Notes under the pieces: generated by a model | Seen by the model: the letters and a program-made list of their open reading frames with translations, nothing else | Database searches by the model: none | Told to the model about the DNA's origin: nothing | Translations under genes and position numbers: made by a program | Part shown: in pieces, positions 1 to 48,078 of the stretch | Layout: the number at the start of each line of letters is the position of its first letter | Numbering within the stretch: position 1 is the stretch's first letter | Assembly: GCA_020161265.1 (NCBI GenBank) | Contig: JAIUOC010000007.1 | Location: forward strand, 248,001 to 312,000 | Direction of reading: 5' to 3' | From: Chloroflexota bacterium | Lineage (GTDB): Bacteria > Chloroflexota > Chloroflexia > Chloroflexales > Herpetosiphonaceae | Length of the DNA stretch: 64,000 nt

Positions 1-3000
1 GGCACCTTGCAACAAACGATCGACGGCTCTGCGGTCGCCAAAGCCAATACCGACGATCCAACTTATATCGGTGGCAGCGCCAGCCCAATTGGTGTATTGC
101 AAGGCTTTTTCCGTGGCCAACTCGATCAGCTAGCAATTTACGATCGCCAAATGACCACCGGCGAAATCTATAGCATTTATTTGCGCGATTTACGCTGGTA
201 TAGCGCTCGGAGCACCGTTGAACTTCAGATTGATACCGATGCACCAGCGATCACGTTGCTTAGCACTGCCGATTATCTGGCAAATCAACCAACAACCTTG
301 GTGGTATCGACGATCGATGCTACTTCCGGCGTGCGCTTGCTTGATGTTGGCCTAAAACGGCCTAACGCTAGCAGCTATACTTGGTCGAGCGCTGGCCTGT
401 GTGCCGAATCGCTCAGCGTCGCGAGCAATGCAGCTTGGTGCTACAGCTTTGATCCAACGAGTTTGGGCGGGGCTGGCAACTATAGTTTGCAATTCCGCGC
501 TGTCGATGCAGTTGGCAACCAAACAATCTCATCCGTCTATACAATTAATATCGATACGACGGCCCCAACTGTCGCCAGCAATTATAGCGAAACTTGGCAA
601 CAACTCAGTGCCAGCAGCACCGATGAGCTTGCTTGGACGGTGGCGCTCAACGGAACCGTCAGTGATACGGGTAGCGGCATCGATCCAAGCTCGGTTCAAC
701 TAAGCTTGCTCGATAGCAGCGGAGCCTTGGCTGGGCTTGATCAGGCTCAGACTGCCACAGTCAGCGGCAATACCTGGAGCCTCAATTATGGCTTTGCCAA
801 CAAACGTCCAGCTGGTCGCTATAACCTGAGCCTCAGCGCTACCGACATGGTTGGCAACAATTGGTCGGGAATTGTTGGCAGCATCGTGCTTGATGGGCGT
901 GCGCCCAGCATGCAGCTTGAGCCAAGCCTGCTTACATCACGGATTATCAGCACAACTCCTAATCTGAATGGCTTGGTGGTTGAACAACCAGCTTGGGGCG
1001 GCGAAGTCGCGGCCTTCCACTTTGCCGAGGCCAGTGGCGCAACCAGCTTTAGCGATTACTCGGATACCAAGCTGATAGCTACATGTAGCGCAAATGCCTG
1101 CCCAAGCGGCGTGAGTGGTCTCTTTGGCCGAGCGCTCAACTTCGATGGCAACAACGATAGTTTGACGATTGCCAGCACCACAACCCTTGATTTGAGTGTG
1201 GCAAGTTTCAGCGCGTGGGTCAAACCAAGTTGGGTTTCAGGCACGTTGGGCTATGCGCCAACGATTTTGGCCCAAAGCGCGGGCAGTAATAGCAATTGGC
1301 GCTGGCAGATGAGCGCCGATTACCGCAGCATGCAATTAACCAATGGCAGCTCAACCACCAGCTTGCCACTCATCTTGGCCGCCAATCAATGGTCGCACGT
1401 GGCCTTGGTGCAAGCAGGCGATCGCTGGACTGGCTATCTGAATGGGGTGGCAATTGGCACGGTCGAGCAAGCGTTTGGCTCAAGCACTGGCTTGCCGCTG
1501 CACATCGGTTCAAATGGCACAAGCCAGTTTTGGGCAGGCCAACTTGATCAGATTACGATCTACGAACGCGATTTATCGGCGGCTGAAGTCTATGCCTTAG
1601 CACAAAGTAAGGTCGCAGGGGTGAGCAAGGCCCAAGTTTGGCTGGCTCCCGACGAAACGATGCTCCCAGCTAGCCCACTGATCAGCTACGATTTTGCTGA
1701 AGTGCGCGGGGCAACCAGTTTCGCCGATGCTAGCGGCAATGGCCATGCAGCAACCTGTAGCAACTGCCCAACTGCCACCAATGGCTGGACTGATGCTGAG
1801 GCACTGAGCTTTGATGGAGTTAACGATGGCCTGAGCGCCACGATTACCAGCAATTTGAGCTTGGCAAACTTTACTCAAGCTGTCTGGATCTATTCAACCG
1901 CAACCGATAATGGCTATCATTCAGTGATGGGCTATCAGCCAGGATCGTTCAATCAGCGCCGCCCACCAAGCATCTATATTACCCAGAAAACGCGGATTCA
2001 TGCTGGGTTTGGCGATGGCAGCGTGTTCACATCATTGGAAACTGGCTCAGTCTTAACGCCCAATGCGTGGAATCACATCGCGACTACTTTTGATGGTCAA
2101 GCCTACCGCGTCTATGTCAATGGCACTGCGGTTTATACCTCGACTGCTAGTGCTGGCCGCACGCCCTATCCTGTCTCCAAGCTGGAGATTGGCAAGGCTG
2201 ATACCTATTTCAAAGGCGCGATCGACCAAGTGCGCATCTATGATCGAGCGCTTTCGGCCAAGGATATTGGGTTGTTGGCTTCGAGCTGGACGAATGCCAG
2301 CCTGACTGGAGCAAGCAGTGTGAGCGCCGACTGGAATTATCAGATTCCTAATGGCTTGCAAGGCTTGTATAAGCTGAGTTTGCGCGGCACTGATACATTC
2401 AGCAACACCGAAAGCATCGCGACGATTTGGCGTGGCATGCTCGATAGCGTTGCGCCCAACATCTCGCTTAGCGCAACCCATCAAGGCGGTGGCTTAGCTG
2501 CCTCAACGGTCTACACCATTACCGCCAGCGATCTGTTCCTTGATCCAGCGACATTGAGCACGCCATGTCAAACGACCAACAGCACGTTGAGCTACAACCA
2601 AATGGGCGGAGTTAGCTCGCTAATTGTGACATGCAGCGTTGTAGGCCATCAGCAAGGGAGCATCAGCGCAACTGTTCGCGATTTGGCGGGCAATCAAGCC
2701 AGTGCATCCTTTAATCTGCCAATGCCAACTACCAACCCAGCGATTCTGATTAGCAGTCCAAGCGGCAGCATTACTGGAACTGCACCAATCAGCATTACAG
2801 GGGGAGCGTTTGCGCCGATTGGGATTCAAAGCGTGGCAGTGTTGATTAATGGTCAGAATCTGAGCACGATCAACTATGGCGTTGGCATTACCAATACGCT
2901 CTGGACCACAAATTGGCAGCCGCAAGCGAGTGGTAGCTACACCATTACGGCTGTTCTGACGACCAGCAACGGCGGGGTTTACACCGATACGACCACGCTC

Positions 3001-3828
3001 AGCGTGCGCGAAGCCTACCAATTAATCGTCAATCGCGCAGGCACAGGCAGTGGCACAATTAGCAGCGAACCAACAGGCATCAATTGTGGTGATGTTTGTA
3101 GCGCCTATTTTGCCGAAAGTAGCGTTATCACCCTAACCGCCACACCTGCGAGCAATTCAGTGTTTAGTGGTTGGAGTGGCGTGTGTAGTGGCAATAGCCT
3201 GTGTGTTGTGCCCATGACCCAAGCGCAGAGCGTTACCGCCAGCTTTAGCTTGAAGACCTATCCATTGGGCATTAGTTTTGCGGGCACTGGTGATGGTACG
3301 GTCAATATTCTGCCAAATGGGGTTAATTGTACCCGCCAAACCCCAGCCTGTTTGCTGTTCTTCAGTGCCGGAACCGTGGTAACCTTGACGGCTACGCCGC
3401 TTGCAAATGCCAGCTTTGTTGGTTGGAGCGGCGATTGTAGCGGAACCGCCAGCTGTGTGTTAACGATCGATCGTGCCCATACCATATCAGCCCGTTTCGA
3501 TTTGGTAACGCCAACCCCAACCGCGACGGCAACCAGCACACCAACACCAACGCCAAGCGCGACGGCCACGCCAACGACGACAGCAACCGCTACCGCGACA
3601 ACGACCAGCACGCTCACCGTTACACCAAGTCCAACCGTCACCGCGACGGCGACCGCAACGCATACACCAAGTTCAACCACCACGAATACGCCTACCGTCA
3701 CCGCAACCGTGACAATCACGGCGACCGCGACCGTAACGCCAAGTCCAACGGTCACAAATACGCCAAGTGCAACACCAACCTTAGGCGTAAGCGAATATCG
3801 GGTTTATCTGCCAATTGCCATGCGCTAA
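1..3828 (+). CDS. Giant secreted LamG / Ig-like / InlB-B-repeat protein (5' end missing)
   Basis: The reading frame is open to the left edge, so only the last 1275 or so residues are present. In order these are the end of a LamG/concanavalin-like jelly roll (about residues 1-60), Ig-like segments, two more LamG domains (about 340-535 and 560-760, each closing with an I-Y-x-R-x-L-S/T-A motif), another Ig-like stretch, and two Cys-containing divergent InlB-B repeats (about 1005-1160, with FSGWSG and FVGWSG). A Thr/Pro/Ala tail of about 90 residues follows, then the C-terminus RVYLPIAMR. LamG domains normally bind glycans or proteins, so a surface adhesin or exoprotein role is inferred. The Thr/Pro tail could be a wall-spanning stalk. 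No catalytic domain is visible in the part present. A 14-bp-arm hairpin follows the stop. Confidence 0.8.
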   Translation, partial: GTLQQTIDGSAVAKANTDDPTYIGGSASPIGVLQGFFRGQLDQLAIYDRQMTTGEIYSIYLRDLRWYSARSTVELQIDTDAPAITLLSTADYLANQPTTLVVSTIDATSGVRLLDVGLKRPNASSYTWSSAGLCAESLSVASNAAWCYSFDPTSLGGAGNYSLQFRAVDAVGNQTISSVYTINIDTTAPTVASNYSETWQQLSASSTDELAWTVALNGTVSDTGSGIDPSSVQLSLLDSSGALAGLDQAQTATVSGNTWSLNYGFANKRPAGRYNLSLSATDMVGNNWSGIVGSIVLDGRAPSMQLEPSLLTSRIISTTPNLNGLVVEQPAWGGEVAAFHFAEASGATSFSDYSDTKLIATCSANACPSGVSGLFGRALNFDGNNDSLTIASTTTLDLSVASFSAWVKPSWVSGTLGYAPTILAQSAGSNSNWRWQMSADYRSMQLTNGSSTTSLPLILAANQWSHVALVQAGDRWTGYLNGVAIGTVEQAFGSSTGLPLHIGSNGTSQFWAGQLDQITIYERDLSAAEVYALAQSKVAGVSKAQVWLAPDETMLPASPLISYDFAEVRGATSFADASGNGHAATCSNCPTATNGWTDAEALSFDGVNDGLSATITSNLSLANFTQAVWIYSTATDNGYHSVMGYQPGSFNQRRPPSIYITQKTRIHAGFGDGSVFTSLETGSVLTPNAWNHIATTFDGQAYRVYVNGTAVYTSTASAGRTPYPVSKLEIGKADTYFKGAIDQVRIYDRALSAKDIGLLASSWTNASLTGASSVSADWNYQIPNGLQGLYKLSLRGTDTFSNTESIATIWRGMLDSVAPNISLSATHQGGGLAASTVYTITASDLFLDPATLSTPCQTTNSTLSYNQMGGVSSLIVTCSVVGHQQGSISATVRDLAGNQASASFNLPMPTTNPAILISSPSGSITGTAPISITGGAFAPIGIQSVAVLINGQNLSTINYGVGITNTLWTTNWQPQASGSYTITAVLTTSNGGVYTDTTTLSVREAYQLIVNRAGTGSGTISSEPTGINCGDVCSAYFAESSVITLTATPASNSVFSGWSGVCSGNSLCVVPMTQAQSVTASFSLKTYPLGISFAGTGDGTVNILPNGVNCTRQTPACLLFFSAGTVVTLTATPLANASFVGWSGDCSGTASCVLTIDRAHTISARFDLVTPTPTATATSTPTPTPSATATPTTTATATATTTSTLTVTPSPTVTATATATHTPSSTTTNTPTVTATVTITATATVTPSPTVTNTPSATPTLGVSEYRVYLPIAMR
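3507..3780 (+). repeat. Thr/Pro-codon low-complexity repeat
   Basis: Degenerate short repeats built from ACN and CCN codons encode the Thr/Pro/Ala-rich tail of the LamG protein. The antisense strand reads as an open Val-rich frame, which is an artefact of this composition. Confidence 0.8.
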
Positions 3829-7200: not shown

Positions 7201-7587
7201 CTATGGCATTTGATAGGTTTGGCTGGCCATTGCGGTGTTGGTTTGATCAATCACCCGCACCGTCAGATTGGTAGCCGCTGGCAACAGCGTTCGACCAACC
7301 CCAACCACCGCAAACGACGATCGCGGACCAGCCTGTTGAAGTAACTGATTTGGTTTGGGCGTGGTATAGATCACCTGTACCGTGACAACAGTGTCATCAA
7401 GTCCAACCGCATCAATCACCACCTGATAGCCATTTGTCCAACGCACACCAGTAAAGACTCCGATTAATAGAGTATCAGTTATCGCAGTCGTAGCGACATT
7501 TGGTTTCCAATCCCGTGGAATAACACCAAGCATGGATTGTTGTTCACTGGAAGTTCCCGCAATCATAGCATCAAACCGAAGGTATAC
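7201..7587 (-). pseudogene. 3' half of a split PrcB-like lipoprotein gene (copy A)
   Basis: This is the C-terminal part of the intact gene at 11810-12349, from the region MIAGTSSEQQ to the end ASQTYQMP, with very high similarity at protein and DNA level. Homology to the intact copy stops at about 7587, in a GGTATAC stretch. The missing 5' half is found about 4 kb upstream in the direction of transcription, at 11559-11713. No signal peptide or ribosome site is left, so a functional product is unlikely. Confidence 0.8.
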
Positions 7588-7621: not shown

Positions 7622-9850
7622 CTATTCTAAAACAAAGGGAATATACACTCGTTTAGGGAGCGTGTAAGGAATTCCAACATGGGTCGAAGTTGTAGCATAA
7701 TTACCAACAAAATCACGAATTGTTAATTTTACCCCGCCAAAATATGGAGTGCTGTATGCATGGTTTGCTACTGGAGTTGTTGTTATTTGATCGATAGTAC
7801 CATCATTATCAAAATCCCATTCATACGATGCAACAGTTCCGTGAACAGTCCTCGATGCACTTGCATCAAAACTTATTGGATAATTAATTGATGCTGAATG
7901 CCATTCTGGAAGTTTCGCAATAATTGATTCAGAAAGTATTCCATTAATACTCGATCTCATTGTATCTAATGTGTCGATTTCGTGGTAAATAGGGTAATAT
8001 GTTCCCTTAGTTGTGGCTGAAATTCCTGAATAAACCATTTCCATATTATCATCGGGATAGGTAATAATAGAATTTATCTGTATAGGCAAACTACTATTTT
8101 GGGTTGCACTAACAACAGATTGGGCAGTATAACCAGTGTAAGGTTCCGGATTAAGAGGAGATGCATTAGTTAAAAGGATTATTGATTTGATTGCATCTGT
8201 TCGCCAAGGCATTGTGCTTGCTGTCATTAAACCTGAATACACAGATTCTTCACCTGTACTCCCACCACCATCAGCACTAAGACCCTCAATCGTATTCATA
8301 ATATTTATTTTATTTGTAGTAAAGCCTAGTGCTACCCGTGCAGCAAAATCCGTGGTATTGCCGGTATCTTGTGGGAAATCACGAAATTCTACAATTCCTA
8401 TGCGATAATCAACACCGCTTTCTGTTAGAATATTAATCGTCGATGCAATTGTTGATTGAAGACTCCATAAATTGCTTCCATCAAGCTCACCACTATTGTT
8501 TGTTGTATCAACTACATAAACTAAATCAAGAGGTGTACTCATAGAACATGCGGTTCCTGAATTACATGGGTTAGCTCGAATCTTGACATTTACACTATGT
8601 GGTGTCCATGCTCCTAATGATCTAAAACTTGTTGCTGTTCCATTGACAACTTTGTACATATCAAAAACAAGAGTATAGTTTCCTGAAATGGTTGGTAGGT
8701 TGCTCAACGTAACTATTTCTGTTGCACTGTCACCAGGATTAGTTGCATTACAAATTTGGATACGTGGGCCTTGTACTTCCGTTCCCTGATGTGTCCAGGT
8801 AAAGCCTAGTTCGTATGAGGTTGAAGGTGTACAAAGCCACAGCTGTTTCCCAGTATTTTGAATTTTCATATTAATATCATATGTACTACCTGATTGTAAG
8901 TTAAATCTGTCAATTCCTTGCCAATCAATACTTAAAGGATTCCATCGCAATGCAGGAACTGTAGTATTTGAAGAAAGGACAGATCGAATATCTGCACCTG
9001 GGTAGTAGTGAGAAAGGGCTTGTTCTGCGCGATTATATTGAACGCTCCATGGAACGGATGGATTTCCTAAAGAACAGCGGTTGCCGAGAAGCCAGCGATT
9101 TGTTCCTCGTTGCGACAGTCCACGTCCATGACCATTAATATTTGCCGCGCATGGTGTTGCAGTACTGCTAATTGGATCAACAAAGGCTTGTGTCCTCTCT
9201 TGAGGAATTGCACCATGAGGATAATCAGCAAAAAATTCGGCATTTATGGCTGCTAATGATGTTTTTTCTGCCAAGTAAAGACGATCATATAATGCACTAC
9301 AAACCTTGCGTTGTGATTGATTAAGGAGCCTTCGTGTTGTAGAGCATGGGTTTTCACGGCTTATTACATATTGATTGGGTGGAGTATTACCCGCAATATT
9401 AAATCTGTAGGGAATAAACATCTGAAATTGTGTCGAATTATTGATATTAGAACCATTATTATTAATTTGATAGTATGCATAAGATCGTGCTGCAATAGCC
9501 TGTGCACGCATCGCTTCTGTTATAAATTCAGGCGGAAACATTTCACCAGGCAGAACATTTGGCAAGTATTCGTTCTCAATATTAAGTGTGATTGTAGAAC
9601 TATTATATGGGTATATATAATTAGGATCACCTTCTATTGCGGTACATCCAAATACATCAAAGGTTGTAGACATTTGAGAGCAAGGTATATTGCCTAATTT
9701 AGCACCTTGAGTATCAAGGGGATACATTGTAAGAGTAATCGTAGTAGGCGGTTGACTTGATTGTGCTTGAGCATCCAAAGGAATTTGAAGAATTCCTGCT
9801 AGTGCTAGAATAGTGAGAATATTTAGCCAGAACTTCGTTAATTTTTTCAT
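7622..9850 (-). CDS. Secreted SpoIID-like / VWA / PKD protein
   Basis: Has 742 residues with a signal peptide (about 1-29). A SpoIID/LytB-like domain (about 90-265) shows LPGEMFPPEF, AQAIAARSYAYYQ and the late motif GHGRGLSQRG. An NBR1/CARDB-like beta-sandwich follows (about 305-430, QNTGKQLW), then a von Willebrand A domain (about 445-625, DLVYVVDTT) and a PKD domain (about 645-715, YEWDFDNDG). The C-terminus is RVYIPFVLE. SpoIID proteins are lytic enzymes on peptidoglycan glycan strands stripped of stem peptides, so action on the cell wall, its own or another cell's, is inferred. The VWA domain lacks a canonical DxSxS (DTTNN instead), so metal binding is doubtful. The start overlaps the stop of the preceding gene (TAATG), suggesting coupled translation. 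Base composition is clearly A+T-rich compared with neighbours. Confidence 0.8.
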   Translation of the reverse strand: MKKLTKFWLNILTILALAGILQIPLDAQAQSSQPPTTITLTMYPLDTQGAKLGNIPCSQMSTTFDVFGCTAIEGDPNYIYPYNSSTITLNIENEYLPNVLPGEMFPPEFITEAMRAQAIAARSYAYYQINNNGSNINNSTQFQMFIPYRFNIAGNTPPNQYVISRENPCSTTRRLLNQSQRKVCSALYDRLYLAEKTSLAAINAEFFADYPHGAIPQERTQAFVDPISSTATPCAANINGHGRGLSQRGTNRWLLGNRCSLGNPSVPWSVQYNRAEQALSHYYPGADIRSVLSSNTTVPALRWNPLSIDWQGIDRFNLQSGSTYDINMKIQNTGKQLWLCTPSTSYELGFTWTHQGTEVQGPRIQICNATNPGDSATEIVTLSNLPTISGNYTLVFDMYKVVNGTATSFRSLGAWTPHSVNVKIRANPCNSGTACSMSTPLDLVYVVDTTNNSGELDGSNLWSLQSTIASTINILTESGVDYRIGIVEFRDFPQDTGNTTDFAARVALGFTTNKINIMNTIEGLSADGGGSTGEESVYSGLMTASTMPWRTDAIKSIILLTNASPLNPEPYTGYTAQSVVSATQNSSLPIQINSIITYPDDNMEMVYSGISATTKGTYYPIYHEIDTLDTMRSSINGILSESIIAKLPEWHSASINYPISFDASASRTVHGTVASYEWDFDNDGTIDQITTTPVANHAYSTPYFGGVKLTIRDFVGNYATTSTHVGIPYTLPKRVYIPFVLE

Positions 9851-11809: not shown

Positions 11810-12349
11810 TTATGGCATTTGATAGGTTTGGCTGGCTATTTCGGTGTTGGTTTGATCAACCACCCGCACCGTGAGATTGGTAGCCGCTGGCAACAATCTT
11901 CGATCAACCCCAACCACCGCGAAGGAGGCTCGCGGCCCTGCTGGTTGGAGCAATTGATCTGGTTTGGGCGTGGTATAGATCACCTGTACCGTGACAACAG
12001 TGTCATCAAGTCCAACCGCATCAATCGTCACTTCATATCCATTGGTTCCTCGGACACTTGTAAAGACCCCAAGAATCAGTGTGTTTGTAACCGCAATCGT
12101 GGAAACACTTGGCTTCCAAACACGTGGAATAACACCAAGCATAGATTGTTGTTCACTAGGGGTTCCGGCAATCATGACACCAATACTGGCAAGGTGATAC
12201 AAATCGTCATCCAAACTCAACAAACGATCATCAACCTGAATTATTGGGGTTACTGGAATCACCGTGCCGATTGCAGGCGTGGTTGCCCCACAACTTCCTA
12301 GCATACTCCCAACGACCACAATGAATATCAATTTGATTAAATGGTGCAT
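11810..12349 (-). CDS. Small lipoprotein with PrcB-C-like domain (intact copy C)
   Basis: Has 179 residues. The signal peptide ends GSMLGSC with lipid-anchor Cys20. The C-terminal region (about 90-175) has the pattern GYEVTIDAV followed by a strand, TPKP, and a final hydrophobic strand. This resembles the C-terminal domain of PrcB-type protease-complex subunits, so assignment to that family is tentative. An in-frame ATG further upstream (12373) is possible, but AGGAG sits 6 bases before the ATG at 12349. It is the only intact one of three related pieces here, and the other two are the halves of a disrupted tandem duplicate. Confidence 0.7.
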   Translation of the reverse strand: MHHLIKLIFIVVVGSMLGSCGATTPAIGTVIPVTPIIQVDDRLLSLDDDLYHLASIGVMIAGTPSEQQSMLGVIPRVWKPSVSTIAVTNTLILGVFTSVRGTNGYEVTIDAVGLDDTVVTVQVIYTTPKPDQLLQPAGPRASFAVVGVDRRLLPAATNLTVRVVDQTNTEIASQTYQMP

Positions 12350-12736
12350 GTTTAGCTCCTTTAGCGTTTCCATGTCAATGCAGCATAGACTTTATTCTTC
12401 AAATAGGGGTTTTGATCATAGACCAACACAGCAATGCCAAAGCGTAATTCAGTTTCATTGGTTGCTGCATTCGTTGCAACCAATGAAACTAGGTATATTA
12501 GAAACGATAACAAGTTTCGGCAGCAGGGCATTGCAGAATCGTTGCAGAATCGTTGCAACTTCACGGCAAATCAGGATTGATCAACGGTTCGTTAGCCCCA
12601 AACATGCGAGAACGAGAAGCTAAACAAACCAAATTTAGAGCAATTTTGATGAAATTGAATGCAGCGTGCAAAAAAAAATATGTTTCTGCATCTATATACA
12701 GCAGAGACTATTGGATAGCTTATCGGAGGAAACGCA
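12350..12736. other. Intergenic region with a hairpin and short direct repeats
   Basis: No convincing gene is seen. A minus-strand frame of 67 codons ends exactly at the ribosome site of the lipoprotein gene and could be the tail of a lost gene. The region contains a perfect 15-bp-arm hairpin and a tandem GTTGCAGAATC repeat (about 12530-12558), listed separately where useful. Confidence 0.35.
12451..12490. repeat. Perfect 15-bp inverted repeat
   Basis: Arms at 12451-12465 and 12476-12490 are perfectly complementary around a 10-base loop. No T tract follows on either strand, so it may be an operator, a terminator of a lost gene, or a mobile-element scar. Confidence 0.6.
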
Positions 12737-15824: not shown

Positions 15825-16862
15825 ATGGCTTCACTTGGAAAAATCGTAAGTTTTGGCGTATTGACAATTAGCATATTCGCAGGTTTACAACTTCAAACTC
15901 CTACTATTCAAGCACAAAGCCCAAGCCCAGGCTATAGCTACCAAAGCCTTGGCACCCTAGGCGGTCACGATAGCTACCCCAGCGATATTAATGATTTTGG
16001 GCGAATTGCTGGCACCGCAGAAACCGAGTTCTCGGAAATCCGTGCTTTTGTTTGGCGGCGGGGCACCATGACTGATCTTGGCACGCTTGGCGGCGATCAA
16101 AGCTATGGTTATGGCATCAACGACACGGGTTATGTGGTCGGCGAAAGCACCACCAGTAATAATCAACGTCGTGCTTTCTATTGGCGCGAAGGGGTAATGC
16201 TCGACCTGGGTACACTTGGTGGCAGCGTCAGCACCGCGCTCGATGTGAGTAATGGTGAACGGGTGGTTGGGCGTAGCACCACCAGCAATGGTGCAACCCA
16301 TGCTTTTATGTGGTATCGCGGCACTATGAGCGACCTTGGCACGCTTGGCGGCAACTACAGCACTGCCAACGAAATCAACGACAATAAGGTGATTGTTGGT
16401 TGGAGCACCAATGCCAATGGCGAAACGCGGGCCTGTATGTGGAAAAATGGTACGCTGATTGATCTTGGTGTGCCTGGGGTCAAAAGTTATGCCTATGCCG
16501 TCAATAACAGCGAGCAAGTAGTCGGCATGATGGAATTGAGCGATGGCCAACGCCATGCCTTCTTATGGCAAAACGGCGTAACTACTGATTTAAGTGCAGG
16601 CCTGAATCAATATAGCAGTGCCAACGATATTAATGATGCTGGGATCATTGTTGGCTTTACTGGCGATGATAGCACTCCATTGGCCGCAACCGTTTGGCGC
16701 AACGGCACAGTTCTGCGCATGGGGCCATTTAGCCAAGGCCCAAACGAACATCAAACCATCGCAACCTCAATTAACGAAGCCAATCAAATTATCGGCTACG
16801 ATATCGCCAGTGATGATATTTCATCCACCACTGTCGGCACACTCTGGCAGCTTGAGCAATAG
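15825..16862 (+). CDS. Secreted HAF-repeat protein
   Basis: Has 345 residues with a signal peptide (about 1-31, cleavage near IQAQ). The mature part is about seven repeats of some 45 residues. Each contains a core like DLGTLGG, then AxxINDxGxVVG and RAFxWRxG, the pattern of the extracellular HAF family, which folds as a beta-propeller-like repeat array. The function of the family is unknown. GGAGG sits 9 bases before the ATG. The last repeats are more divergent. No V-Y-L-P tail is present, unlike three other secreted proteins in the window. Confidence 0.82.
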   Translation: MASLGKIVSFGVLTISIFAGLQLQTPTIQAQSPSPGYSYQSLGTLGGHDSYPSDINDFGRIAGTAETEFSEIRAFVWRRGTMTDLGTLGGDQSYGYGINDTGYVVGESTTSNNQRRAFYWREGVMLDLGTLGGSVSTALDVSNGERVVGRSTTSNGATHAFMWYRGTMSDLGTLGGNYSTANEINDNKVIVGWSTNANGETRACMWKNGTLIDLGVPGVKSYAYAVNNSEQVVGMMELSDGQRHAFLWQNGVTTDLSAGLNQYSSANDINDAGIIVGFTGDDSTPLAATVWRNGTVLRMGPFSQGPNEHQTIATSINEANQIIGYDIASDDISSTTVGTLWQLEQ

Positions 16863-45067: not shown

Positions 45068-47851
45068 TTACTTACTGATCAACGGCAGATACTGCACCGA
45101 ACTCGTATCATAATCATCAAGATAGGCCGCAACCCACGCCAGCGGCGAGTTCCAGTTAATCGTCACTTCATTGGTTGACCACGAATCGATATGATCAACA
45201 TAGCACTTCAAGGCCGCGCAACCAGCCAATTCGACTTGAGCATAGGGGTCTTGAATGCTTGAATTTGGCCCACCAGCCACCACACCTGGCGGCGTACCAG
45301 GATACTCTGGATTAATTTGCTTGGCCCAGAAGCGATGATGTGGATTGGTCAATGAGACCGAGCCATAGCCCGAAATATACGAGCGATTCAGTGGATTACG
45401 CCCCAACAAGTAAGCCATGCCTTGGCTAATTGCATCGGCATAGCTGGCATCGCCAGTAAAGTCGCCTGCCAAACCCATTACAATCATATTATTCAGAATT
45501 GATGAGTTGGAACCCCAAGGATATTGCAGACCTGGATCGTATGGAATGCCATAGCCACTGGATTGCTGCGCAGCCACAAATTGATCAGCCGCTGCAATGA
45601 CTGCGGCACGGGCAGTTTGGCGCTCAGCACTACTCAAATCATTGGGAACCAAGGCCAACGACAGGGTGCCAAGGCTGGCCACGCCGCCCCAGTTCATGGC
45701 GCTACCACCACCAAGATCAAGCTGCAAATAATAGCTCGATTCTTCAATTGCTTCGCGATAGGTGGCCGAGCCAGTTGTGATATACAATTCGGCGGCGGCC
45801 CAATACCATTCATCATTCAAGGTGCTATCGCCATAGCCACCACCGCCATTGAAGTTATCGCGGGCGATTTCGTTAGGATAGGCCAAGGCTGCTTGCCAAG
45901 CTCGTTCAGCCGCCACCAAACAACGGTCAGCAAAGGCTTCATCGATCTCACGCCAAATCCGTGAACATTGGGCAGCGGTCGCAGCCAAGTTCAAGGTTGC
46001 GGCGGTACTTGGTGGATACAAATAGCGCATTTGGCTATCTTCGTGTGGAGCCATTGGCAAACCAGTCCAGTTCGCATCGTGAACTTTATGGTGCACCATA
46101 CCCGTTTTGGAAACTGGCGCAGTCGTAGGAATTTGCATTCCTAGCATAAACTCCATATTCCAGCGCACTTCATCCAACAAATCAGGCACGCCATTGTTAT
46201 TTTCGGGAATATTCATGGTGCCATCGGCAAATTGGGCTAGGCTCTCGGGGCCACGTTGCTGCGCTCGTTCATATTGATTGAGCAACGTCCAGACCGAAAT
46301 GCCACTGTTGACCACATATTTGCCATGATCGCCAGCATCGTACCAACCCTTCGAAACATTGAGTTGATAATCGCAGCCAGGCCAGCTTTGGCCTTGGGTG
46401 TCAGTGCCAGTAAAACAGGTTACCGAGGTATCGCCTTGGTTGGGTGCAACCCCGATGTGGCCTGCTGGTCGCGTCCATTGCTCACCACCAGCATAGGGCA
46501 TGGTAATCGCAATCCCGCTGCGATTATGGTAGAAATAGGCCAAAGCATCATATTTCATCCGCGAATACAAGCCTGCCTCGATGGCAAATGGATAGCTCGT
46601 TTCGCTACCGATGCTCAGATAATAGCCTTCACCAACCGTTTGGTAGCTTGAAAAATCGATCAAATGCACATGTTCAGCCGAGGCTGATTCTTCGCCATAC
46701 ACCGTGGTTTGGCCGCTTGCCACCACTGCATCAGCAGTGTTATGCAATTGCCAAGCCAATGGCTCAGTCGCAGGATGCACCAAACTTGCCACTTTGCTCA
46801 TCGTGGGCAAATAGCTGGCTTGGTTGACCCGAATTCCGGTTTCTAACATATACAAACTCACCTGATCAATACAGATCGTCGGGGTTCCGATGCCACCCAT
46901 TTGGAACAACAACGAAGCTGCATCGCTATAGGCCGATGTAAAATTATAGACAAATTCTGTCCAGGCCGAGTTGAGCACTGGATCAGCCGAAAAATAGCCA
47001 GTGTATGGCTCGGCATTTTTTTGCAAACGCACGGGCAAAGTGACTGGCACAGTTGATTTGGCAGCAAATTTAAGCTGATAGCTCACACCAGCTTCAATCG
47101 CAATGGTATGTTGACCAAGCTGCACATCCCAAGGATTTGTGCCAGGAGTGTTGATCGTCAAACACGCGCCATCATCGGTGTTCACACTGACATCGCCGCC
47201 AGTCCACCAAGGCGGTAGGCCACCAACAAACTCGCCATTTTGCACCAAATTGCCCGATGGCTCGACCGGGCCAGTTTCGCCCAACACTTGCACATCGTCA
47301 ATTGTCAGTACATTCGTGCCTTGGCCGCCCATTTGAAATTGAAAAGCAGCCCCAGCATCATCAAAGCCTGAGGTAAAAACAAATTGATGGGCTTGATCGC
47401 TCGTGGTCAAGGTAACATCTTGGCTAAAATAGTTGGTATAGGGCGAGGCCTCTTTTTGCAGTTTCATCACCACAGTACCAGTGGTTGAGGCACGGATGCG
47501 AAACGTGACAGTGTAGGTTTGGCCTGATTGAAGCGGAACTCCATTTTGGCCAACGATTGCATCCCATGGATTACTACCAGCATTATTGATGGTTGCGACT
47601 AATGCACCACTCGCAGTATCAGTAGCGACCGAGCTTGTGGCCCACCATGGCGCAAAACCAGCGCTGAAATCGCCATTTTGCAGCAAATTACCAACAGTTT
47701 GCGGGGGTTGAGCATAAATCTGTGAGGTGGCTGGCACAATCGCTTGTTGGCAGCCTAACGCAATAACCAACCAAAAGACGAAAAATCCTCGTGCCCAAAA
47801 GCTCCTCGTCGAACGGATACCAATCACGGTACGGCTGTGGTCAGCGCTCAT
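45068..47851 (-). CDS. Secreted GH9 cellulase with two CBM4/9-type modules
   Basis: Has 927 residues. Signal peptide (hydrophobic FWARGFFVFWLVIALG, about 20-40). Two CBM4/9-like modules (about 55-195 and 205-340), each beginning N-L-x-Q-N-G-x-F and containing PWW. A CelD-N Ig-like domain (about 345-430) and a GH9 catalytic domain (about 440-915) follow. The catalytic region has YDAGDHGKYV (nucleophile/base Asp pair), a late NPHHRFWA and NEVTINWNSPLAW, the usual acid Glu signature. GH9 enzymes cut beta-1,4-glucans. The C-terminus is VQYLPLISK, related to the tails of two other secreted proteins here. GGAGG precedes the ATG at 47851. Confidence 0.92.
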   Translation of the reverse strand: MSADHSRTVIGIRSTRSFWARGFFVFWLVIALGCQQAIVPATSQIYAQPPQTVGNLLQNGDFSAGFAPWWATSSVATDTASGALVATINNAGSNPWDAIVGQNGVPLQSGQTYTVTFRIRASTTGTVVMKLQKEASPYTNYFSQDVTLTTSDQAHQFVFTSGFDDAGAAFQFQMGGQGTNVLTIDDVQVLGETGPVEPSGNLVQNGEFVGGLPPWWTGGDVSVNTDDGACLTINTPGTNPWDVQLGQHTIAIEAGVSYQLKFAAKSTVPVTLPVRLQKNAEPYTGYFSADPVLNSAWTEFVYNFTSAYSDAASLLFQMGGIGTPTICIDQVSLYMLETGIRVNQASYLPTMSKVASLVHPATEPLAWQLHNTADAVVASGQTTVYGEESASAEHVHLIDFSSYQTVGEGYYLSIGSETSYPFAIEAGLYSRMKYDALAYFYHNRSGIAITMPYAGGEQWTRPAGHIGVAPNQGDTSVTCFTGTDTQGQSWPGCDYQLNVSKGWYDAGDHGKYVVNSGISVWTLLNQYERAQQRGPESLAQFADGTMNIPENNNGVPDLLDEVRWNMEFMLGMQIPTTAPVSKTGMVHHKVHDANWTGLPMAPHEDSQMRYLYPPSTAATLNLAATAAQCSRIWREIDEAFADRCLVAAERAWQAALAYPNEIARDNFNGGGGYGDSTLNDEWYWAAAELYITTGSATYREAIEESSYYLQLDLGGGSAMNWGGVASLGTLSLALVPNDLSSAERQTARAAVIAAADQFVAAQQSSGYGIPYDPGLQYPWGSNSSILNNMIVMGLAGDFTGDASYADAISQGMAYLLGRNPLNRSYISGYGSVSLTNPHHRFWAKQINPEYPGTPPGVVAGGPNSSIQDPYAQVELAGCAALKCYVDHIDSWSTNEVTINWNSPLAWVAAYLDDYDTSSVQYLPLISK

Positions 47852-48078
47852 TGCTGCCTCCATGATTCACTTCATTGGAATCGGTCTCAATACATCAGTG
47901 TAAATGAAGGAAGGTTGTTGAGACGAAAGCTGCTGCTACAGCGCGATGCAATTGGGAGTGCTTTCGTCGGCAATTGAGAACGATCTCATAACTAGATAGC
48001 ATATAATAGCATAGGATTGTGCCGTATAATGCAACCAGCAATTTTGCCGCGTTGAAGCTTGATTGGCTTGAGGAACCC

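Follow-up and report, generated by a model that had tools for sequence, protein, structure and literature searches.

A short C-terminal tail on exported proteins of filamentous Chloroflexota: a probable sorting or attachment tag with a PorU-like C25 peptidase as candidate partner

In filamentous Chloroflexota, numerous large secreted proteins end in a common tail of about nine residues (…VYLPLxxR/K), which is very likely a short linear C-terminal tag for sorting or attachment. Directly observed are the tail, where it sits at the C-terminus, its association with export signals, its distribution across taxa and the co-occurrence of a C25 peptidase; recognition, surface retention and the part of C25 are deduced from these. 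The explanation that we favour overall, and consider probable, is that the tag acts after export and that a PorU-like C25 cysteine peptidase is its most likely processor. The tail is not mentioned in the open-access literature that we consulted on Chloroflexota envelopes (PMC7332563, PMC13319060) and on CTERM systems.

The tail was recognized in three proteins encoded in the window, that is, the whole stretch of 64,000 nucleotides analysed here (PWM, the scoring matrix described below):

1..3828, plus strand: giant LamG-domain secreted protein, 3' part
3505..3798, plus strand: Ser/Thr/Pro-rich linker from the last folded domain to the tail of the LamG protein (boundaries approximate)
3799..3828, plus strand: C-terminal tag RVYLPIAMR and stop of the LamG protein (PWM score 18.5)
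7622..9850, minus strand: SpoIID/LytB, VWA-like and PKD secreted protein (signal peptide MKKLTKFWLNILTILALAGILQIPLDAQAQ)
7622..7651, minus strand: C-terminal tag RVYIPFVLE and stop of the SpoIID protein (PWM score 12.3)
45068..47863, minus strand: GH9 cellulase carrying two CBM_4_9 domains (IALGC|QQ, resembling a lipobox, in the signal peptide)
45068..45097, minus strand: C-terminal tag VQYLPLISK and stop of the GH9 protein (PWM score 8.0)

The three C-termini are present in the sequence exactly as a preliminary description had reported them: …SEYRVYLPIAMR for the LamG protein (stop 3826-3828, plus strand), …LPKRVYIPFVLE for the SpoIID protein (stop 7622-7624, minus strand) and …SSVQYLPLISK for the GH9 protein (stop 45068-45070, minus strand), the ORF of the last reaching 47863 rather than 47851. 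All three proteins also carry export signals, as had been claimed. Those of the SpoIID and GH9 proteins lie in the window, and the clear signal peptide of the LamG protein (MHIRSSRSLIVRATWLALLALLLSPFLLGWL…) is visible only in DNA fetched from upstream of it, where the frame of 4,401 codons begins approximately 9.4 kb 5' of the window (~4,360 aa counted from the first Met). The VWA label of the SpoIID protein comes from the preliminary description, and VWA had no Pfam match here. None of the three ends in an LPXTG-TM-basic tail or has a CTERM model among its NCBIfam matches, which agrees with that description. Its further claim that a lipobox is missing holds for the LamG and SpoIID proteins, which lack one with Cys at +1, but is doubtful for the GH9 cellulase, which on the evidence of IALGC in its signal peptide could combine lipoprotein and tail-bearing status. 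The GH9 tag lies about 12 residues beyond the GH9 domain and is conserved across four Herpetosiphon species. This genome (G000) is Herpetosiphon-like, its GH9 protein sharing 99% identity with the one from H. aurantiacus DSM 785. A HAF-repeat protein (15825-16862, plus strand) ends in TLWQLEQ and lacks the tail, as had been noted, despite its signal peptide. Two small genes in the window (7201-7566 and 11810-12373, both minus strand) share a near-identical end peptide, LPAATNLTVRV.DQTNT..ASQTYQMP, and appear from their sequences to be a lipoprotein gene or fragment that was duplicated.

Because a loose DNA pattern gave a forward count equal to that of its reversed control in this genome, we turned to stricter patterns and to a PWM applied to ORFs. 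The PWM, trained on 35 non-redundant tails, all from other genomes, was applied to an unbiased sample made up of the window and 40 stretches of 20 kb at even spacing (864 kb and 645 ORFs, or 14% of the 6.04-Mb genome). Scores of at least 9 were obtained at 19 of the 645 C-termini, compared with 0.05 expected when internal windows served as background, which upholds the proposal of a short tag shared by unrelated exported proteins. Sixteen of these 19 were signal-peptide-like, two were 5'-open ORFs and one was a false urease match. The tail was concentrated in proteins whose signal peptides look Sec- or Tat-like: at a score of at least 7, it was found in 18 of 246 signal-like ORFs vs 1 of the other 360 (Fisher p 7e-7; the predictor is crude and over-calls); none of 180 ORFs from other phyla and none of 77 from tail-negative Chloroflexota reached this score. 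The predicted enrichment among signal-bearing proteins was thus recovered, but its restriction to non-lipoproteins was not, as one protein (L255, genome G096) has both a clear lipobox (LAAC) and the tail YLPLVRK. The statement that lipoproteins lack the tail is accordingly not strict, and such combinations suggest that the tail may serve for something other than, or beyond, anchoring. Motif matches in the sample were concentrated at the very end of proteins, with 18 at 0-3 residues from the stop vs 4 across positions 5-199 from the end. By extrapolation, we infer approximately 130 tails per genome (range ~100-150 in Herpetosiphon). Two tandem clusters, of five large genes (L052, G000:C2:140001-160000) and three (L068, G000:C4:200001-220000), consist entirely of tailed genes.

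The consensus from 57 unrelated proteins is [VI]-[YF]-L-P-L-[VAIT]-x-[RK]-COOH, with 0-4 trailing residues; a broader form is (R)-x-[VI]-[YF]-L-P-[LMF]-[VAIT]-x-[RK]-COOH. These proteins were selected on positions -7 to -4 (Y/F, L, P and L/M/F/I), leaving -9, -8, -3, -2 and -1 free, and among the free positions -9 is R-rich, -8 is V/I, -3 is V/A/I/T, -2 accepts any residue and -1 is R/K. Neither of the two positions counted separately was used for selection: R/K occupies -1 in 50 of 57 and V/I/L occupies -8 in 44 of 57. The logo holds scant information upstream of about -10, and variants such as FLPYTSK, WLPYTVKN and VYLPLVTKGE occur. The tail is joined either straight to a folded domain or via an S/T/P linker (8 of 20 cases in our own genome), and in AlphaFold models of the GH9 protein and one C25 enzyme it is a low-confidence coil, neither strand nor helix. 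Tails occur on Sec proteins and on one Tat protein, a twin-arginine (RRQF) exported protein (L226:273-1562, minus strand), which indicates that the tag is not confined to Sec substrates. Families matched by tail proteins include choice-of-anchor Z, T, X and I as well as LPXTG-anchored and myxosortase-dependent ones. Such matches would be expected were the tail to stand in for an anchor, and the domain context, as read from sequence, fits that of anchored proteins. The control for these matches is weak (best 25 of 467 families; choice-of-anchor Q in 2 of 69), and the two choice-of-anchor Q control proteins may themselves be tail variants (FAPYISQ, FAPWATR). Among gene neighbours of tail genes, no family recurred beyond common ones.

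The strict DNA pattern was run on 400 Chloroflexota genomes. In the window's own order it gave 292 matches, spread over 38 of the 43 genomes (control 5); the other 17 genomes of the class gave none (control 4), and the remaining 340 gave 65, concentrated in a few families. Reading of 19 matches from outside the order revealed real tails scattered through other Chloroflexota classes. In C25-positive genomes, nearly all were ends of real secreted proteins; in C25-negative genomes, four of six were chance, single matches being mostly short chance frames. Genome G266 was tail-rich by the loose pattern and had no strict matches. Among named genomes, Herpetosiphon species and one Ardenticatenaceae MAG had matches (some in Herpetosiphon read TGG, no stop), and two Anaerolineae MAGs and 19 genomes from other phyla had none. 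Among GH9 orthologs, those of Herpetosiphon bear the tail and those of Ardenticatenaceae a tail-like end; at that place, other Anaerolineae and also Ruminococcus have a TM anchor, actinobacteria a CBM-type extension, and some relatives nothing.

Peptidase_C25 was chosen for testing because one tail protein matched PorU. In the panel, it was found above cut-off in 19 of 19 tail-positive genomes vs 0 of 21 tail-negative ones. Across the larger set, PorU-like C25 was present in 47 of the 48 genomes that have two or more strict tails vs 19 of 352 others, and outside the window's own class in 12 of 12 vs 16 of 328 (all of these counts are uncorrected for phylogeny). The preliminary description had suggested looking for a co-occurring membrane protease; the best co-occurring enzyme is instead this secreted cysteine peptidase. 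Chloroflexota C25s score 157-221 bits against the NF033707 PorU profile (equivalog cut-off 420 bits), PorU 6za2 is their only PDB sequence match and top fold match, His715 and Cys756 are invariant in 29 of 29, and 26 of 29 bear the tail themselves. Genomes G247 and G261 have real tails with no C25 detected, and G395 has three strict pattern matches (sequences unread) and no C25; either C25 is not strictly required or it was missed in these genomes. We therefore regard C25 as a tentative lead for the enzyme that recognizes or processes the tail.

In the preferred explanation, tail-bearing proteins would first pass through the cytoplasmic membrane via Sec or Tat, as their predicted signal peptides suggest. 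The free C-terminal peptide would then be recognized outside the membrane, and the protein would be retained at the multilayered envelope of Chloroflexota or become attached to it. The PorU-like C25, usually tailed much as PorU bears a CTD, is the most likely candidate for recognition or processing. A more specific version, which we offer only as a possibility, is that Chloroflexales and several Anaerolineae-like lineages have a T9SS-independent form of C-terminal sorting in which a PorU-like C25 transpeptidase recognizes the nine-residue tag of ~100 or more Sec or Tat proteins per genome. If so, the enzyme would use the tag to attach this cargo to an atypical outer layer, in bacteria that lack BAM and LPS.

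C25 enzymes may, on the other hand, simply be common tail-bearing cargo. This is how they would figure if the tail were an uncleaved, non-covalent docking peptide, held (e.g., by strand addition) by a putative receptor of the wall, the S-layer or the outer layer, an alternative that we consider rather unlikely. A short, conserved, low-confidence coil whose hydrophobic residues alternate and which is often carried by a flexible linker would suit such a role, and the C25 enzymes are tailed like other cargo. Peptidase_C11, a cargo-type control and another secreted protease family, also correlates with the tail (13 of 19 tail-positive vs 1 of 21 tail-negative genomes), and G247 and G261 have tails without C25. 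Nonetheless, a receptor candidate was not found, and C25 tracks the tail distribution better than both control families tested.

A quite improbable alternative is that a Chloroflexota sortase (PF04203) cuts the tail at its LP-x-[VTIA] core and joins the protein to the wall. Sortases number 2-6 in each of the tail-positive genomes searched, and our 864-kb sample revealed no LPXTG-TM-basic protein. However, tail-negative genomes equally contain sortases, no clade among the 16 sequences compared was clearly restricted to tail lineages, and the tail lacks both a transmembrane helix and the LPXTG glycine. At one locus (L268, G000:C9:234554-236919), a gene for a PorU-like C25 with the tail precedes a sortase gene at a distance of 114 bp, and matches to C25 and sortase are equally close in two other Herpetosiphonaceae genomes, G029 and G062. 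This adjacency leaves room for a sortase role, but the pair was not observed at the sortase loci examined outside that family. A cap that aids folding or stability or protects secreted proteins from degradation, with no part in sorting, is very unlikely: the hydrophobic consensus with its basic end, on many unrelated exported proteins, would suit one, but the tail is confined to some Chloroflexota lineages, is lacking from secreted proteins of related classes, and lies at a distance from the terminus that varies too little for a general cap. Chance or common ancestry of C-terminal domains, to which tails common to some tandem paralogs (L052, L068) might point, can be practically discounted given canonical spacing in 57 homology-independent proteins, the excess over expectation at C-termini and the confinement of matches to the last residues.

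The outer envelope of filamentous Chloroflexota looks diderm-like in images, yet no genes for BAM or LPS are reported (PMC7332563, PMC13319060). A tag shared by ~100-150 exported proteins in each Herpetosiphon genome, together with a candidate enzyme, would provide a handle on the cargo of that surface and would annotate many proteins, predatory hydrolases among them. PorU-type C-terminal processing would also reach beyond Bacteroidota.

One of the nearest known systems is the T9SS of Bacteroidota, in which a C-terminal signal is likewise found on Sec-exported surface proteins, many substrates are served by one C25 PorU-like enzyme with a Cys/His dyad, and the enzyme carries its own type of signal, a CTD in PorU and usually the tail in Chloroflexota C25s. 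PorU retains its CTD, and the last CTD residues, including basic ones, are essential for export (PMC11285876). T9SS CTDs are, however, folded Ig-like domains of ~67-108 residues (PMC11285876), compared with about nine in the tail, and the Chloroflexota C25s score well under the PorU equivalog cut-off. The T9SS also attaches cargo covalently to an outer-membrane glycolipid. BAM and LPS genes are not reported in Chloroflexota (PMC7332563). T9SS proper was ruled out as the identity of the tail system because the SprA/Sov translocon (TIGR04189) was absent from all 19 tail-positive genomes (0/19; Prevotella positive control 2,626 bits). LPXTG signals resemble the tail in their short C-terminal Leu-Pro motif and basic end, and sortases are present in tail genomes, but the tail has neither a TM segment nor LPXTG, and its motif sits at the extreme C-terminus, the tail ending four residues past Pro. 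With PEP-CTERM/exosortase, GlyGly-CTERM/rhombosortase and MYXO-CTERM/myxosortase, it shares the use of one tag on many unrelated exported substrates and the presence of choice-of-anchor domains upstream; these signals are tripartite with a transmembrane helix, whereas the tail lacks the length needed to cross a membrane, and no NCBIfam CTERM or sorting-signal model covers it among the matches listed. The eukaryotic, intracellular signals PTS1 and KDEL, in which a few residues at a free C-terminus serve as a portable address, are unrelated to the tail in sequence but similar to it as short C-terminal addresses.
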